IMG/VR virus record: IMGVR_UViG_3300032308_000078
Location: 1 to 23,524 of that record
Source: a virus
Length of the DNA: 23,524 nucleotides
Reading direction: 5' to 3' (one strand)
This document shows, piece by piece, positions 1-23,524 of the stretch. Within the stretch, counting starts at the first letter, position 1. Every line of letters begins with the position of its first letter. Made by a program: the position numbers and the translations under genes. The notes beneath the pieces are model-generated. The model was not told where the DNA came from and made no database searches. It saw only the letters and a list, made by a program, of their open reading frames with translations.

Positions 1-132
1 AATACCATCTACACCTGTAACAGCTTGCTCTACTAGGTTTAAGTTATTGTTGGTAGTTGATCCCCAGGTACCAGCCTGCTCACCATCTCCAATGAGGGTA
101 AGTTTTAACGAACTTGAATAGGTTGATGCCAT
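1..132 (-). CDS. N-terminal fragment of a tail-fibre-type protein (continues past the left edge)
   Basis: The first 44 codons are visible, from ATG at 132-130 and open to base 1, so the C-terminus is outside the window. An AAGGA ribosome site lies 7 bases upstream of the ATG. The protein begins MASTYSSSLKLTLIGDGEQ and continues with AGTWGSTTNNNL. This opening (LTLIG.GEQ.GTWG..TN.NL) is, from memory, a common N-terminus of phage tail-fibre or tail-associated proteins in uncultured aquatic phages. It probably serves as the virion-anchoring end. It follows the 20-residue-repeat gene by 9 bases and extends the adhesion module to the left. The function of the missing part cannot be stated. Confidence 0.75.
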   Translation of the reverse strand, partial: MASTYSSSLKLTLIGDGEQAGTWGSTTNNNLNLVEQAVTGVDGI

Positions 133-141
133 AATATGTCC

Positions 142-1041
142 TTATTGATTATTGTCTATCACAACCCATGAGTTAGGTTGAGTATTATTTATTTCAGTCC
201 AAGATACTGAATTATCATTGTTTATTGCTGCCCAAGTAACAGATTGGTCATCGTTTATTTTAAACCATCCACGAGGGAATTGGGAATCTAATAGTGCAAA
301 TGTTTCAATAATAGAAGCTTGGAACTGAGCTACTACGCTAGGAGCATCAGCTAAGTTAGAGTTCTCTGTTAAAGATACATTAAAGTTGGTAATAGCTGTA
401 TTTGCATCAGCAGCGTCAAGATTCTCTGTAATTGTAAAGAAGAACCCTTGGACAATGGTTACAATATCTGCCATTGTAATGTCTTCATTTCTTGAAACTA
501 AAAAGTTAGTTATAGCTACATAAGCATCTGCCATCGTCATGTCTTCTACAACGCTCTGTGCAAACTGAGCTGTGATACTTGTTGTATCAGCAAGGTCTAC
601 ATTTTCTGTTTGTGACGCTATAAACTGAGCTGCTATAGATCTTATATCATCCATCGTAAACGGCTCAACACGCTCTTGTAACGCTGCAAAATAAACATCT
701 CTTACATCGTCCATAACAACATCTTCTGTTTTGCTTACAGAAAACTGAGCTTCTATAGCTGGTGTATCGTTTAAAACTGAATCTTCTGTAATACTTGATA
801 AGAAATCAGCTGTAATAGTATTAACATCATTCATTGCTACAAATTCATTAATAAGCCCAAAGAAATCACCTGTTGTAGCATCAATATCATTTATGACAAC
901 ATTTTCTGTAACTAGCAGGTCAAACGCAGATATCTGGCTACTTGCATCAGCCATAATAATATCTTCAGTTAAAGATAGTACGAACGAATTACCGCCTAGT
1001 CCAGCAAATGTAGGTTGAGCAAAGGCAGCGTATCCAAACAT
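142..1041 (-). CDS. Tandem-repeat structural protein (twelve 20-residue repeats plus 11-residue Trp repeats)
   Basis: A 299-residue acidic protein of unknown function. Residues 1-21 are Gly/Ala/Phe-rich. Residues 22-261 form twelve consecutive 20-residue units without gaps, of the pattern x-S-x-T-E-D/N-x-x-M/L-A/N/D-D-x(7)-F-x; the last unit is degenerate. Residues 262-299 form three and a half 11-residue units with a Trp at position 9 and an I-N/D-N start. Periodic units with fixed acidic and hydrophobic positions suggest an elongated beta-rich or fibrous shaft ending in a Trp-rich tip. It lies at the end of the tail-fibre cluster, and its ATG at 1041 overlaps the stop of the upstream glycine-rich gene by one base (TAATG). 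A tail appendage or virion-associated role is inferred from context and repeat architecture. No enzymatic motif or signal peptide is visible. Confidence 0.8.
   Translation of the reverse strand: MFGYAAFAQPTFAGLGGNSFVLSLTEDIIMADASSQISAFDLLVTENVVINDIDATTGDFFGLINEFVAMNDVNTITADFLSSITEDSVLNDTPAIEAQFSVSKTEDVVMDDVRDVYFAALQERVEPFTMDDIRSIAAQFIASQTENVDLADTTSITAQFAQSVVEDMTMADAYVAITNFLVSRNEDITMADIVTIVQGFFFTITENLDAADANTAITNFNVSLTENSNLADAPSVVAQFQASIIETFALLDSQFPRGWFKINDDQSVTWAAINNDNSVSWTEINNTQPNSWVVIDNNQ
259..978 (-). repeat. Tandem 60-base coding repeats (twelve 20-residue units)
   Basis: Twelve in-register 60-base units encode residues 22-261 of the repeat protein at 142-1041. Conservation is at protein level (T-E-D..M-A-D..F). 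At DNA level the units share only short words such as the complement of TCTTCTGT and AACTGAGC, so this is an old, diverged repeat and not a recent expansion. Confidence 0.85.
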
Positions 1042-1120
1042 TATGCTGTATATGTTCCTGAAGCTGTGAATTGCATAATTGTATTAGCGCCTGATGTTGT
1101 AATTGTAGGGCTTCCTGTAG
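1041..1120 (-). repeat. 3' copy of duplicated C-terminal coding segment (pairs with 2025-2104)
   Basis: The last 80 bases of this gene align without gaps to 2025-2104 at an offset of 984 bases. By hand count there are about 14 mismatches, roughly 80% identity, and the identical run at 1104-1122 is 19 bases. The similarity encodes the shared tail ending TASGTYTA. It marks the two glycine-rich genes as paralogues and gives a possible site for homologous exchange. Confidence 0.75.
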
Positions 1121-2015
1121 TTGTACCTGAATAGTTAGCAGTTGGTACAGATATAATTACCACACCTGATCCACCATTTTTACCCGCCTGAGAACCAGAG
1201 TTTGGGCCTTGAGAACCACCACCGCCACCACCTCTGTTTGCTGTTCCAGCTGTTGAATTAGCAAATAAGCCACCATTTCCGCCACCGCCATTTCCGCCAG
1301 TTACAGTTGAGCCTGTAGTACCTGAACCACCGCCAGCATAAAATACCGCTGACCCTGTAATAGAGTTAGATAATCCTACACCACCTTGTGTTCCTGAACC
1401 TGCTGCACCTGCTCCACCACCACCCGCAGATGTACCTTGTCCACCTGAGTTGTTACCCCCAGCATTACCTTGACCTGCTGTTCCAGATCCGCCTGTAGCA
1501 TCACCAGCACCAACTGGATCTCCACCACCACCACCAGAACCACCATTTTTTGAAGCTGAACCATTTGGAATTCCGCATCCACCACCAATAGCTGTAAGCC
1601 CTAATCCTGTTGAGTTAGTCCCAGCAGACGGTGTTGTACCTCCCGCACCGACAACAAATGAATATGTAGTTCCAACAGTTAAAGTTGCTGATCCTGTTAA
1701 TAGTCCACCTGCACCTCCACCTGATGAAGCATAAGTTGCTGAACCTAATAGATTACCACCTGATCCTCCACCAGCAACAATTAAATAAGAAGCTGTATAA
1801 GTAGCACCTGAAGTACCTGCATTTGCCCAACCACCTGAAGTATTGTAAATCTCTAGTTGTCCAGTCGTTGTGTTATAACCTTGAGTACCCATTACTGGAC
1901 TTGCTGGGCGTGTAGCAGTTGTCCATGTAGGATTATTTAATTGGCCTGAAATAGTAGGCGAAGCAATCGTTTGCCCTGAAGCTATTAATCCACCTGTAAC
2001 CTGTGTTAATGCCAT
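1041..2015 (-). CDS. Glycine-rich tail-fibre/adhesin-like protein (copy 2)
   Basis: 324 residues. Residues 1-75 form an anchor-like region containing TRPASPVMGTQGYNTTTGQL, a small module I recognise from phage fibre proteins (R-P-x-S-P-x-x-G-x-x-x-Y-N). From about residue 78 the sequence starts YLIVAGGGSGG and becomes very rich in Gly, Ser, Ala and Thr, with GGGGG blocks separated by short spacers. It ends in a threonine-rich tail (TTGSPTITTSG, TASGTYTA). Such glycine-rich bodies resemble receptor-binding tips such as T-even gp38-type adhesins, where polyglycine strands form the binding head. That comparison is by composition only. The body and C-terminus are clearly related to the gene just upstream (2025-2885), while the N-terminus is different. 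Confidence 0.75.
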   Translation of the reverse strand: MALTQVTGGLIASGQTIASPTISGQLNNPTWTTATRPASPVMGTQGYNTTTGQLEIYNTSGGWANAGTSGATYTASYLIVAGGGSGGNLLGSATYASSGGGAGGLLTGSATLTVGTTYSFVVGAGGTTPSAGTNSTGLGLTAIGGGCGIPNGSASKNGGSGGGGGDPVGAGDATGGSGTAGQGNAGGNNSGGQGTSAGGGGAGAAGSGTQGGVGLSNSITGSAVFYAGGGSGTTGSTVTGGNGGGGNGGLFANSTAGTANRGGGGGGSQGPNSGSQAGKNGGSGVVIISVPTANYSGTTTGSPTITTSGANTIMQFTASGTYTA

Positions 2016-2024
2016 GATTTATCC

Positions 2025-2104
2025 TTATGCTGTGTATGTGCCTGAAGCTGTATATGTTAAAATTGTATTAGATCCGCTTGTTGTAACTGTAGGGCTTCCT
2101 GTAG
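2025..2104 (-). repeat. 5' copy of duplicated C-terminal coding segment (pairs with 1041-1120)
   Basis: Partner of the repeat at 1041-1120. The identical 19-base run lies at 2088-2106. Similarity fades upstream into the glycine-rich bodies, which remain alike mainly at protein level. Confidence 0.75.
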
Positions 2105-2885
2105 TTATTCCTGTATATTTTGATGTTAGGATACTTAAAATAACTACGCCTGAACCACCAGCACCTCCGCCTCCGCCTCCGCCCATAACACCACCGCCAC
2201 CAGTATTTGGACTTCCACCGCCACCAGCACCATTATTTCCGAATGTATAAGGGGGAGAACCTAGTCTACCTCGTCCTCCACCTGCATAATATGTAGCTGT
2301 TCCTGTGATTGAAGATTGTAGTCCATCTCCGCCATTAAGGTTTCCGCCAGCTACGCCAGCACCGCCACCGCCACCGCCACCGTTTGAAGTTCCAACGCCA
2401 CCATTATTACCTTGCCCTGCAGTGCCTGAGCCAGCAGTGTTACCATTAGCTGATGCTCCACCTGAACCGCCACTTATACCAGTATTATTATTTAATGAAC
2501 CGCCTCCGCCACCGCCTATAGATGTTACAGTAGTTAAACCTGTTCCACTTAATACTGAATTGGTGCCTGATCCTCCACGACCACTTCCAGTACCGCCACT
2601 GCCTCCAGCACCCACTGTAATAGTATAAACTGTACTACTAGTCAATGTTACAGATGCAGTAAGATATCCACCAGCACCACCGCCACCGCCAGCAGTTCCG
2701 TTACTTCCATCCATACCACCACCACCACCGCCCGCAACTACTAAATAGTCAGCAGTAATAATTTGTAACGGCCAAGTGCCATTTAAAAGAGCTTCTTGTA
2801 TTTCAGGTAAAGAAAATCTACCTTTTGCACTAGAGGTTGAAGTGGCATTAAATTTACCCACTATTCCGCCATTATGACGTTTCAT
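2025..2885 (-). CDS. Glycine-rich tail-fibre/adhesin-like protein (copy 1)
   Basis: 286 residues. The N-terminal 45 residues carry the pattern SSAKGRFSLPEIQEALLNGTW, close to a G-x-W/F-S-L-x-E...G-T-W-P module often seen ahead of glycine-rich phage proteins. From residue 47 (YLVVAGGGGGG) the body consists of polyglycine blocks with Ser/Thr/Asn spacers. It ends in TTGSPTVTTSG and TASGTYTA, matching the next gene. The ATG at 2885 overlaps the previous stop in a TAATG, implying coupled translation. A receptor-binding or fibre-tip role is inferred from composition and position. No chaperone-like gene lies directly beside the pair. Confidence 0.75.
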   Translation of the reverse strand: MKRHNGGIVGKFNATSTSSAKGRFSLPEIQEALLNGTWPLQIITADYLVVAGGGGGGMDGSNGTAGGGGGAGGYLTASVTLTSSTVYTITVGAGGSGGTGSGRGGSGTNSVLSGTGLTTVTSIGGGGGGSLNNNTGISGGSGGASANGNTAGSGTAGQGNNGGVGTSNGGGGGGGAGVAGGNLNGGDGLQSSITGTATYYAGGGRGRLGSPPYTFGNNGAGGGGSPNTGGGGVMGGGGGGGAGGSGVVILSILTSKYTGITTGSPTVTTSGSNTILTYTASGTYTA

Positions 2886-5682: not shown

Positions 5683-6195
5683 TTAGTCCTTATTTAAATA
5701 TTCTATTGCTTTGGTTAATATATTAACATCATCTTTTAGTAAACCTATAGAACGATTACATTTATCACATAATAATCCTCTTACTTTACCTGTTTTATGA
5801 CAATGGTCAATAGCAAGTCTAGTTTTCCTATTGTTAGGAGGAGGAGAGCTGCATATTGCACATACCCCATTTTGCGCTTCTAACATTTTTTCATAGTCTT
5901 TAAAGTCTAAACCATAAGCTCTTTTCATGTGAAGCTCAAGGTCATATTCTTTTGTTTGGCTTCTGCCATGTTTATAATTAGGTGATAATTTACCTTTAGG
6001 GTATTGTTGGCATCCACATGACTTTGCCCTGCCTGAGGTCATTAAACTATAACCAATTACTTTTTCAGTTCCACACTCACATTTAGTTAAATACTTAAAA
6101 CTACTATTACCAGTTCTTTCATCTAACATTTTTAACAATGTTAGTTTATTTATTTTTCTGCCTGACTGGTCTGTATGAAATTTTCCTCTAGGCAT
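5683..6195 (-). CDS. HNH / recombination endonuclease VII family, probable free-standing homing endonuclease
   Basis: 170 residues in two parts. Residues 11-63 hold CECG (C39, C41) and SCGC (C60, C62) in the context ECGTEKVIGYSLMTSGRAKS, like the Cys-rich N-terminal domain of AP2/HNH homing endonucleases. Residues 98-160 match endonuclease VII: C112-x2-C115 and C143-x2-C146 form the zinc site, and D130-H131-x-H133 with N147 give the beta-beta-alpha-metal active site. All key residues seen in the family are present, so it is probably active in cutting double-stranded or branched DNA. It interrupts the fibre cluster between the LamG-like protein and the fibre chaperone. No good ribosome-binding site is visible (only GATAAG), unlike most neighbours, which agrees with insertion as a mobile gene. 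Confidence 0.85.
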   Translation of the reverse strand: MPRGKFHTDQSGRKINKLTLLKMLDERTGNSSFKYLTKCECGTEKVIGYSLMTSGRAKSCGCQQYPKGKLSPNYKHGRSQTKEYDLELHMKRAYGLDFKDYEKMLEAQNGVCAICSSPPPNNRKTRLAIDHCHKTGKVRGLLCDKCNRSIGLLKDDVNILTKAIEYLNKD

Positions 6196-17801: not shown

Positions 17802-18710
17802 TTAAGCACCTGGTGAACCGAACATACCTAACGGATCTGACCAACCGAATGAATAACGTTCACGTGATTTATAACGTACGTTACCTGTATCGAAGTCACC
17901 GTCCATTGAATTGCTTAATGGAGTACGAACAAAGTGTTTCATACCATTAGGAACGTCAGTTGTTAAATACCAACCGTTAGCGTCTGTCAAGAAGTGGTTA
18001 ATTGTATAACCTTCTGGGATAGAGCCATTGTTCTTAATAGCATTGATATCATTGTCAGCTGTACCAACACGTAACTCAGTTTCTAACAAGCGAGTTGCAA
18101 CGAATTGCAATGCTGGTGGAACGATAAGTTTTTTAGGTTTAGCTGCAATTAATAGACCACGCTCATCAGTCCAAGCTGCGATTTGAATAACTGCATTTTC
18201 CAATGAAGTTTCGTTCAAGTCAGCTGCTGTTGATGGAGTGTTACTATTTGTACCGCCTGAAACAAGTGGATGGTCAGTAGCAAATAAAGCCTTGCCGTCA
18301 CCACCAGCGTATGAAGAACTGAAGCCGTTATTAATAACTGCAGCAGCCTTAACTTGTTTTGTGTAAGCCATAGCTCTCGCTAAGGCCTTTGTGTAACGAG
18401 CTGATAAAGAATCATATAAGTTATCTTCAATAGCTTCTTCAGTTAAGCTGAAGCCAAGAGCGATAGTTTCATGATTGTATCGAGCTGTCCAAGCTTCTTG
18501 AGCATTGTCATAAGCGATAGAAGTACCTTCGTTTTTGACTGGTGCTGCTGAGAAGCCTGAAAGTTTTGTTTCTTCTTCGAATGAACGCTCAGAAGTCTCT
18601 GTTTCGTAGATTTCTTTATGTTCTTCGCCATATCTTGCGTACTCTAAACCGAATAGCGCATTAAGACCTGGTAATAGCTCTTTAAGGAGCTGTGCACGTG
18701 AAATAGCCAT
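17802..18710 (-). CDS. Major capsid protein, Mu gpT-like (HK97 fold)
   Basis: 302 residues. It begins MAISRAQLLKELLPGLNALF, then Y-A-R-Y-G-E-E-H-x-E-I-Y, a charged segment SERSFEEETKLSGFSAAPVK and HETIALGFSLTEEAIEDNLY. Further motifs are RYTKALARAMAYTKQVKAAA, GKALFATDHPLVSGGT, IAAWTDERGLLIAAKPKKLI and the ending RYSFGWSDPLGMFGSPGA. This chain of motifs and the length match Mu-like prophage major head subunits (gpT family) with the HK97 fold. Its place after the scaffold and head genes, and the strong terminator directly behind it, fit a capsid gene. AAGGAG precedes the ATG. There is no evident N-terminal cleavage domain, so a separate scaffold is needed and is supplied by 19816-20778. Confidence 0.9.
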   Translation of the reverse strand: MAISRAQLLKELLPGLNALFGLEYARYGEEHKEIYETETSERSFEEETKLSGFSAAPVKNEGTSIAYDNAQEAWTARYNHETIALGFSLTEEAIEDNLYDSLSARYTKALARAMAYTKQVKAAAVINNGFSSSYAGGDGKALFATDHPLVSGGTNSNTPSTAADLNETSLENAVIQIAAWTDERGLLIAAKPKKLIVPPALQFVATRLLETELRVGTADNDINAIKNNGSIPEGYTINHFLTDANGWYLTTDVPNGMKHFVRTPLSNSMDGDFDTGNVRYKSRERYSFGWSDPLGMFGSPGA

Positions 18711-21200: not shown

Positions 21201-21381
21201 CTGAGTTCTCCATTTGTTTATTTAGGTCTTGAATGTATCTTCGTGTAGAAAGTAGACCTGATATCTTTCCGCATATATTTTGGTATTCAGAGTAGTCTTT
21301 GGCTACACCAGTACCTAAATGTTCTTCTAAATTTCTTACTTGTATATCTATTTCTCTTAATATTACTTCGTACTCATTCAT
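21193..21381 (-). CDS. 62-residue helical protein between portal and co-chaperonin
   Basis: 62 residues, acidic and probably all helical. It starts MNEYEVILREIDIQVRNLEE and ends with GKISGLLSTRRYIQDLNKQM and E-N-S-D-E. The ATG overlaps the portal stop (ATGA) and its own stop overlaps the next gene by 8 bases, so it is embedded in a coupled run. Similar small proteins with an I-x-G-L...R...I/V-x-D-L end are found behind portal genes in other aquatic phages, as I recall. No function is known. It could be an assembly factor for the portal ring. Confidence 0.7.
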   Translation of the reverse strand: MNEYEVILREIDIQVRNLEEHLGTGVAKDYSEYQNICGKISGLLSTRRYIQDLNKQMENSDE

Positions 21382-23524
21382 TTATTTTCCTTGTTTGAAG
21401 GTTGTTGGTTTTGTTTTCTTTGTTGATTCTCTTGCATAGCCATTTGAGCTTTTGATCTTCCAATATCTGAACCTAATCTAAAGCCTTCCATTTTTTCTTT
21501 TGAAGCAATGTTAGCTTTTTCTGCTTGAGCTTTAGCTGTTACTTGCATGCCAGCAATTTCTTTCTGTGCTGATATACGAGCTTTCTCTAATTCAAGTTGA
21601 TCAGCTTTTGCTGCCGCATCAATTTGCATTTTCTTCATCTTAATATCTACTTCTTGTGCTTTTAATTGAAGTTCTTTCAACTGCATTTGAACCACAGGGT
21701 CTTGCGCTGCTTGTTGTGCATTTTTAGCTGCAATTTCTGTTTGATTTTGATTGAGAAGTTGTTGTGCTGCTGGAACTGCCATACGAGCAATTTGAAGTTC
21801 TTGCTCAGGCGTTATTCTAGTATCTTCATCATCGCTATCAAGGTCGTTATATGGGATATTAATGCCCATAGTAAGCTCCATTTGACGTTTGTACTCCATA
21901 CCTACGTGCTCTGTAATATGAGCTTGTAGTGCTTGAGCAATCATAGGTGCTTGTGGGTTCTGACCAATCGTTTCTCTGATTTTTGGGTCGTTTAACATAG
22001 CCATATGTATTTGAATATGGGCTTGATGGTCCTGATACATGAAAGCTTTCATAGGTTTGCTCTTTAAAGCATTCATATTTTCAGTAATTGGATCTAATGG
22101 CTTCTCATCTTCAGGTAAAGGTACCAATTTTTCAGCATTTTTGATGCCTAATACTGACAACATCTGACGATGTAGGTATGGTAGGTTGTAAAGTTGAGGT
22201 GCTGTTTGTGATAATTGTAAAACTGCTTGGTATTGCACCACTTTTTGACTCATTGTGGCCGCATTTGGGTCAGAAACAGGGATAATATTGATCATCTCAT
22301 AGTCTTTTCTACGAGCTTTTCTGTTACCTGTCGCTGGTTCGTATGAATAATCAGCTGGAGCGTAGCTTGCAATGATCTTCTTGAGTAATTTAAACTCATT
22401 TTTCATCGAAAAGTGCATACGAGCTTGAATAGCTGACATCACTTTGAGCGTTCTCTCTAAGATTGCAAGCGTTGTGCCTACAGGAGAGTTAGCACTCATG
22501 TCTGAAACCTTTAAATCACCTGCAGCTGCAAATCTTCTACCCTCTTCAATGATCTGATTAAGTAGTTGAATGAGTGTTTGTGATGGTTCTTTGTAAGGTA
22601 ATGGCATGATATTGTCTTTCATCGTGCCAGAAGGTACATCTACATCTCTAAATTCGCCTGGAGCAATTGGTGTATCATCACCTTTAACTCTAAGGCCACG
22701 AGTTTTAAATCCACCTGGAAGGTTAGCTAGTGATCCAGCGTCTACTAACTGACGTAATATGGATGTACCAGATTTAGCGAAACCTCCGATCAAGTGAATC
22801 AAACCAAAAGCATAGAATCCAAAACCTGGAATGTATGCATAATGAACAAAGTGCTGACGTTTTTGGAAAGTCTCATCATCAGGTTCCCAGTTACGTCTTA
22901 CTGCTAATACTGTCATACTTCCGTATTCAATCGTTACGATATATGGAAGTTTTAAACCTGTCTTATTACCTTTTTCATCTTCATGTTCAAAGCCAGGAAG
23001 ATCTAAGTCAACTTGCATTTCAATTAGTTTATATCTTGAATCAGTTGTTGCACGGAAGCCTAGCTTCTCTGCAATCTTCTTCTCAACTTCATCTAATGTA
23101 TTTTGTGGTGCACCTAATTCAACATCACGATAGAAGCCATCAAGTTGAAGTCTTAGTAATTCATTTTCTGTTTTACGCATGACGTGAGATACACGCTCTG
23201 CAGTTTCAAGATTAGAAGCGCCATAAGGAACAACTAAATCTTCTGAAGGAACGTAGATAGATACTTGACGATCAAGACCTGGATCTACATAAACCTTTTT
23301 AAATCCGTTACCAGAAAGTGCGGTACCCCATAACATACGTTCATGTTCTGAGCGATACTCGGTCATCTTTTCTGTAAGCTCATAGTTCATGTCATCAACA
23401 ACACGTTCCATCGCTTCTTTTTTCTCTTGTGTTTCTTTTCCAATAATCTCGCCCTTAACAGGACCAGCTGCTGGGAAAGTATCCATGATTGTTTCTGATT
23501 GGAATTTAGTAACAGCTTCAGCTA
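21378..23524 (-). CDS. Portal protein, P22-like (5' end outside the window)
   Basis: At least 714 codons are visible. The frame stays open from 23522 to the first in-window ATG at 23486, and that upstream stretch reads AEAVTKFQSETI in continuity with the family pattern, so the true start lies beyond the right edge. Key segments are MDTFPAAGPVKGEIIGKE, DDMNYELTEKMTEYRSEHER, MLWGTALSGNGFKKVYVDPG, VSIYVPSEDLVVPYGASNLE and SHVMRKTENELLRLQLDGFY. The last 150 residues are a Gln/Lys/Ala-rich coiled coil, as in the C-terminal barrel of long portals. Portals form the dodecameric DNA channel at one capsid vertex and bind terminase and adaptors. The length fits P22 (about 725) better than siphovirus portals. 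Confidence 0.9.
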   Translation of the reverse strand, partial: AEAVTKFQSETIMDTFPAAGPVKGEIIGKETQEKKEAMERVVDDMNYELTEKMTEYRSEHERMLWGTALSGNGFKKVYVDPGLDRQVSIYVPSEDLVVPYGASNLETAERVSHVMRKTENELLRLQLDGFYRDVELGAPQNTLDEVEKKIAEKLGFRATTDSRYKLIEMQVDLDLPGFEHEDEKGNKTGLKLPYIVTIEYGSMTVLAVRRNWEPDDETFQKRQHFVHYAYIPGFGFYAFGLIHLIGGFAKSGTSILRQLVDAGSLANLPGGFKTRGLRVKGDDTPIAPGEFRDVDVPSGTMKDNIMPLPYKEPSQTLIQLLNQIIEEGRRFAAAGDLKVSDMSANSPVGTTLAILERTLKVMSAIQARMHFSMKNEFKLLKKIIASYAPADYSYEPATGNRKARRKDYEMINIIPVSDPNAATMSQKVVQYQAVLQLSQTAPQLYNLPYLHRQMLSVLGIKNAEKLVPLPEDEKPLDPITENMNALKSKPMKAFMYQDHQAHIQIHMAMLNDPKIRETIGQNPQAPMIAQALQAHITEHVGMEYKRQMELTMGINIPYNDLDSDDEDTRITPEQELQIARMAVPAAQQLLNQNQTEIAAKNAQQAAQDPVVQMQLKELQLKAQEVDIKMKKMQIDAAAKADQLELEKARISAQKEIAGMQVTAKAQAEKANIASKEKMEGFRLGSDIGRSKAQMAMQENQQRKQNQQPSNKENK

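Follow-up and report, generated by a model that had tools for sequence, protein, structure and literature searches.

What does a virus build from a protein whose core is one short unit repeated twelve times without a gap, and what sets the length of that core? The question is raised by a gene at one end of a 23.5 kb viral record (the whole stretch of 23,524 nucleotides is referred to here as the window). The genes of the structural module in the window all lie on the minus strand, running from the portal protein and the major capsid protein (MCP) down to the fibre-type genes (Table 1). The ATG of the repeat-rod gene shares 1 nt with the stop codon of the Gly-rich gene before it, and two consecutive Gly_rich_2 genes (together 1041-2885) directly precede it.

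Table 1. Coordinates of the repeat-rod protein, its parts, and its neighbours in the window
Feature	Position	Strand	Description	Basis
Following gene, start	1..132	-	MASTYSSSLKLTLIGDGEQAGTWG...; conserved fibre-type partner; runs off window; 9 nt downstream	
Repeat-rod protein gene	142..1041	-	299 aa; final complete gene of window	ORF call
Trp tail	145..267	-	residues 259-299; W259/W270/W281/W292; period 11, WxxI[ND][ND]xQ	
Rod	259..978	-	residues 22-261; twelve gapless 20-residue units	period analysis, unit profile
N-cap	979..1041	-	residues 1-21; also in HTVC023P gp68, Venkman gp51, ctXG6705	family alignment
Preceding gene	1041..2015	-	Gly_rich_2 protein, 324 aa	ORF + Pfam scan
Second Gly_rich_2 gene	2025..2885	-	Gly_rich_2 protein, 286 aa	ORF + Pfam scan
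MCP	17802..18710	-		
Portal protein	21378..23486	-		

The twelve gapless 20-residue units described in the first-pass annotation of this DNA were confirmed, with residue and nucleotide boundaries corresponding exactly. At a period of 20, column identity scores 395, as compared with a mean of 101 in 20,000 shuffles (sd 9.3, max 158; z ~31), and no other period below 40 approaches it. E5 and D11 are present in all twelve units and F19 in eleven (unit 5 has A), while M/L9 (10/12), D/N6 (9/12), and T4 (7/12) are looser positions whose constancy had been overstated. The end of unit 12 falls inside the GWFK motif that opens the C-terminal Trp array, so this unit is a transitional copy. Identity between units is 15-55% (mean 30%) in the protein and 45% in the DNA, and because of these low values Tandem Repeats Finder is blind to the array, detecting no repeat in its DNA.

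Relatives of the protein occur at at least 128 IMG/VR loci (41 loci were found first, and the GWFKI[ND]D pattern then brought the relatives to 128), with more when divergent members are included. In 95 unique proteins, the step between units is 20 residues in 985 of 1014 cases, 21 in 21, 19 in seven, and 22 in one, the odd steps being undercounted because the walk used a profile with a penalty favouring 20 and stopped early in some divergent arrays. Arrays of 8, 9, 11, 12, 13, 16, and 20 units were found, 12 being by far the commonest in what is a biased census, the loci having been ordered by how closely they resemble queries of 12 and 13 units. An apparent avoidance of 10, 11, 14, and 15 units was dropped, as L114 has 11. 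The distances from the N-cap to GW, which are independent of the step walk, are 177, 197-199, 257-260, 277-279, 338-341, and 417 residues; the array length changes by whole units, with leftovers of 1-4 residues.

Over the array, omega is mostly ~0.2-0.4, indicative of purifying selection, and comparison with seven relatives gives 0N/18S changes at E5, 1N/12S at D11, 5N/21S at F19, and 60N/27S at position 20. The proposal that the exact period is kept by selection thus stands, carried by the homologues (their step, omega, and the constancy of E5) and not by DNA divergence alone; irregular spacing among homologues had been named as evidence to the contrary, and the spacing is regular. Across twenty 12-unit relatives without gaps, a unit on average resembles its same-position counterpart more than it does the other units (0.56 vs. 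0.30 in L058, for example), so the twelve were inherited as a set, without recent re-amplification. The idea that copy number tunes length is therefore acceptable over long evolution (8-20 units); as a fast switch it is contradicted by the dominance of 12 and by the position-wise orthology of the units. The array ORF is broken in two contigs (L089 2414-3309 and L092 1812-2659; frameshift, decay, or assembly error). No relative was found in GTDB 220 genome contigs, so no prophage host emerges from them.

The array should be considered together with two parts that had been overlooked, an N-cap before it and a Trp-repeat array after it. The window N-cap is MFGYAAFAQPTFAGLGG, and the family alignment gives the consensus MFGxxAFAQxPFAxLGG. 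Among the unique relatives, the W-W spacing in the tail is exactly 11 in 303 of 315 cases, and complete tails hold 2, 3, 4, or 6 Trp. The next gene starts with a sequence of the MASTYSxSLKxELIGxGxQxGxWG type in 89 of the 91 relatives with enough downstream sequence, usually after a gap of 9 nt (the partner in the window begins at 132), and one member of this partner gene carries PF07484 (Phage Tail Collar) along with many PHROG tail-fibre matches. The upstream neighbour differs among relatives, and gene scans and synteny place the array gene in the tail/fibre module.

In at least six relatives (L100, L103, L104, L105, L113, and L039, the ORFs of L103 and L039 being cut at the contig end), the array and the Trp tail stand at the C terminus of much longer ORFs (843-1771 aa), and the N-cap is missing. 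Several of these giant ORFs carry a Gly-rich stretch before the array, and such a stretch shares one chain with the array in the relatives L031 and L104. When scanned, the giant ORFs of L104, L105, and L113 hit neither a PHROG fibre family nor, above cut-off, a Pfam model; by size, composition, and place, the giant ORFs look like fibre proteins. The fibre-cluster placement made in the first-pass annotation is thus supported by the next gene, by the Gly_rich_2 gene before the array, and by the fused forms. Where the N-cap lies, how well it is conserved, and the fact that the fused forms lack it suggest that it may be an attachment domain.

The reading that we favour, with slightly better than even confidence, is a virion fibre with a docking N-cap, a unit-stepped rod, and a Trp-repeat distal end. 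In such a fibre, the N-cap would be the docking part, binding either the tail or an adjacent component of the fibre, and the 20-residue array would form a thin acidic rod of several chains (three by analogy) wound side by side, each unit providing one turn or strand set, with the E5/D11 pair recurring along the rod. The Trp-repeat tail would be the distal end and act as an assembly clamp or contact tip; whole units would set the rod length, and another repeat type could replace the rod with the ends unchanged. The rod is probably multi-chain, and its length and type are probably exchangeable. Virion presence, the oligomer, polarity, rod shape, and the receptor or clamp role of the tail are what we infer.

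In adenovirus-type triple beta-spiral shafts, short repeats of constant length build a thin shaft whose length is set by copy number. The window array is similar in its short constant-length repeats, but its unit profile lacks a conserved Gly/Pro turn per repeat, and there is no sequence or fold match to such shafts. The net charge, -38 for the whole protein and -33 over the 240 residues of the array, would be unusual in a tight rod unless compensated by cations or neighbouring chains, which suggests that cations or inter-chain contacts may matter.

Two AF2 predictions bear on how the array folds. With a gappy full-length alignment of 30 rows the result was uninformative (pLDDT 33), whereas a second alignment of 98 in-register stretches, each six units long and with the tail included in about two thirds of the rows, gave a single-chain pLDDT of 58.6 (best units 73-77) with a pTM of 0.15. 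The in-register model is an extended chain with no strands, in which unit positions 9-11 form a helical turn three residues long in all but one of the six units; the hydrophobic moments of the unit favour neither helix nor strand. A disordered prediction, taken beforehand as evidence against an ordered repeat, was thus obtained by halves, from the naive alignment but not for the best units of the in-register one.

The first-pass annotation had offered a solenoid as one of its two readings. A single-chain beta-solenoid with one coil per 20-residue unit, as in pentapeptide-repeat or RTX-type proteins, would agree with the exact period and the conserved positions, and one relative has a weak match to Pentapeptide_4 (E 0.005, below the curated cut-off). 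However, AF2 usually detects solenoids, and neither monomer prediction contained a solenoid or intrachain strands. The unit also lacks the five-residue A(D/N)Lxx pattern, its hydrophobic positions 3, 7, 9, 15, and 19 are not spaced by five, and the pentapeptide models PF00805/PF13599 gave no match above cut-off. A solenoid is therefore unlikely. The AF2 result speaks against a single-chain solenoid and is compatible with a chain removed from a multi-chain fibre, which can look like this; the other proposed reading, the fibrous shaft, would be the best one.

Low AF2 confidence and the charge of the array would also suit a flexible acidic tether, i.e., a mostly disordered linker joining the N-cap to the Trp tail. 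This appears quite unlikely in view of a spacing that hardly varies over 1,000 unit steps, the orthology of the units, and the strong constraint on E5/D11/F19; moreover, the composition falls on the folded side of the charge-hydropathy line, and pLDDT rises to 77 with the better alignment. The location of the gene between fibre genes, near the conserved fibre-type gene, might point instead to an assembly factor or chaperone of the neighbouring fibre that stays outside the virion, but the fused forms place the array within the fibre-like chain itself, and length changes by whole repeats are unexpected for a chaperone, which makes such a role very improbable. An amyloid of the kind that phages carry as curli, either secreted or at the surface, is scarcely credible: HTVC023P-type pelagiphages, a related phage group, do encode curli (PMC9599517), and the periods are similar (about 22 residues in curli), but the curli motif SxxxxxQxGxxNxAxxxQ, including its SxxxxxQxGxxNxA part, is absent from the unit profile, the context is a tail cluster, and no curli gene is found among the scanned window genes.

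The favoured virion fibre gains from a comparison of the rods found between similar ends. The window protein has an N-cap, an array, a Trp tail, and a downstream fibre-type gene, and we propose a cap-rod-Trp-tail grouping on this basis. Phages with an MCP 63-71% identical to that of the window include HTVC023P (63.5%), DSL-LC04, and Pag-Yong1. In HTVC023P, gp68 (QGZ17697.1, hypothetical protein) shares the N-cap (LLGITAISQSPIASLGG) and the period-11 Trp tail and lies directly upstream of a MAST.. tail gene equivalent to the fibre-type gene of the window, but its central array is of a VTGxQ type with period 22, without the E5/D11/F19 unit. Venkman gp51 (QLF88126.1; Methylophilales phage) and a ctXG6705 protein share the N-cap (MYGLSAFSQSPYSALG / MFGICSFSQAPFSSLAG) and a Trp tail, whereas their array is of a SITxTATVT type with period 20, and their Trp period is 10; gp51 adjoins a tail collar gene, just as the window array gene lies beside the fibre-type gene. 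In DSL-LC04, WJZ48131.1 shares the Trp tail and is directly upstream of a MASTYS-type gene, but has a 22-residue VTGVQ array, akin to that of HTVC023P gp68, and no matching N-cap. In place of the cap, its N-terminal part has WG-rich stretches in which W recurs at intervals of 5 residues (L123 1150-1650).

For the HTVC023P, Venkman, and ctXG6705 proteins, 20,000 shuffles of the respective N-terminus never equalled the real N-cap score. By hhalign, whose E-values here are single-pair ones, the N-cap alone matches the window family in Venkman gp51 (E 3e-5) and HTVC023P gp68 (E 8e-4), and the Trp tail alone in DSL-LC04 (E 4e-6) and HTVC023P (E 2e-4). Between array types, hhalign gave no array match, and the tests for remote homology were negative. 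In IMG/VR, the VTGxQ type comprises at least 40 unique proteins, with a best array period of 22 in 36 of 40 and a Trp spacing of 11, and the SITxTATVT type at least 70, with a period of 20 (or its multiple 40) in all 70 and a Trp spacing of 10. The next gene is MASTYS-like in 37/40 of the former and MAKTKxSE-like in 55/70 of the latter. Lengths are unit-stepped in these types as well (198, 218, 238, 258, and 318 in one; 226 and 292 in the other). Distinct array types occur between the same ends, and one rod type may have replaced another within a given lineage. The array and Trp-tail periods stand at 2:1 in two types (22/11 and 20/10) and at 20/11 in that of the window (HTVC023P gp68 is L191 4302-4982).

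The family, though large, has no entry in Pfam, PHROGs, or NCBIfam, where scans gave only sub-threshold chance matches, and because of this its genes carry labels such as 'hypothetical', 'serine-rich adhesin' (the ctXG6705 protein), and 'HERC6'. The last refers to Venkman gp51 (L196 4001-4717), a cap-rod-Trp-tail protein publicly annotated as 'putative E3 ubiquitin-protein ligase HERC6'. A sequence search of the PDB with the single protein gave no match, and a profile match to heme oxygenase (E 0.38) was dismissed as chance. Foldseek found nothing in the PDB and one match in BFVD (E 0.86), so that PDB sequence and profile searches and Foldseek yielded no relative of solved or confidently predicted fold. 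In named phages, five array queries run with tblastn retrieved only the DSL-LC04 Trp tail (E 0.2) and nothing related to the array; tape-measure matches to the Trp tail (E 0.05 to 0.4) apparently reflect a chance similarity of spaced Trp. The literature search returned no description of phage repeats of this kind or architecture, and a search for proteomic evidence of the protein in virions likewise found none.

A broader reading, which we put forward tentatively as a possibility, is that of a widespread unnamed fibre superfamily combining a cap, a swappable rod, and a Trp-repeat clamp. It would hold at least three rod types at the same locus and between the same ends (20-residue TEN/LAD/F, 22-residue VTGxQ, and 20-residue SITxTATVT), with lengths in whole units only, and the multi-chain fold of its acidic-ladder rod would be without solved precedent. 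If fibre-like proteins do keep their ends while swapping a rod of fixed step, they would offer a clear example from nature of a virion component whose length and type are exchanged as modules. The phages concerned have relatives that infect Pelagibacter and OM43 methylotrophs, bacteria abundant in aquatic habitats, and HTVC023P and Venkman, as two cultured representatives, make the family testable. Within the fibre cluster of the window, an HNH-type gene (170 aa, assigned by sequence; 5683-6195) follows a DUF7483/SPRY protein, and the gene order of ctXG6705 (lectin, 'hnhc') matches this placement.
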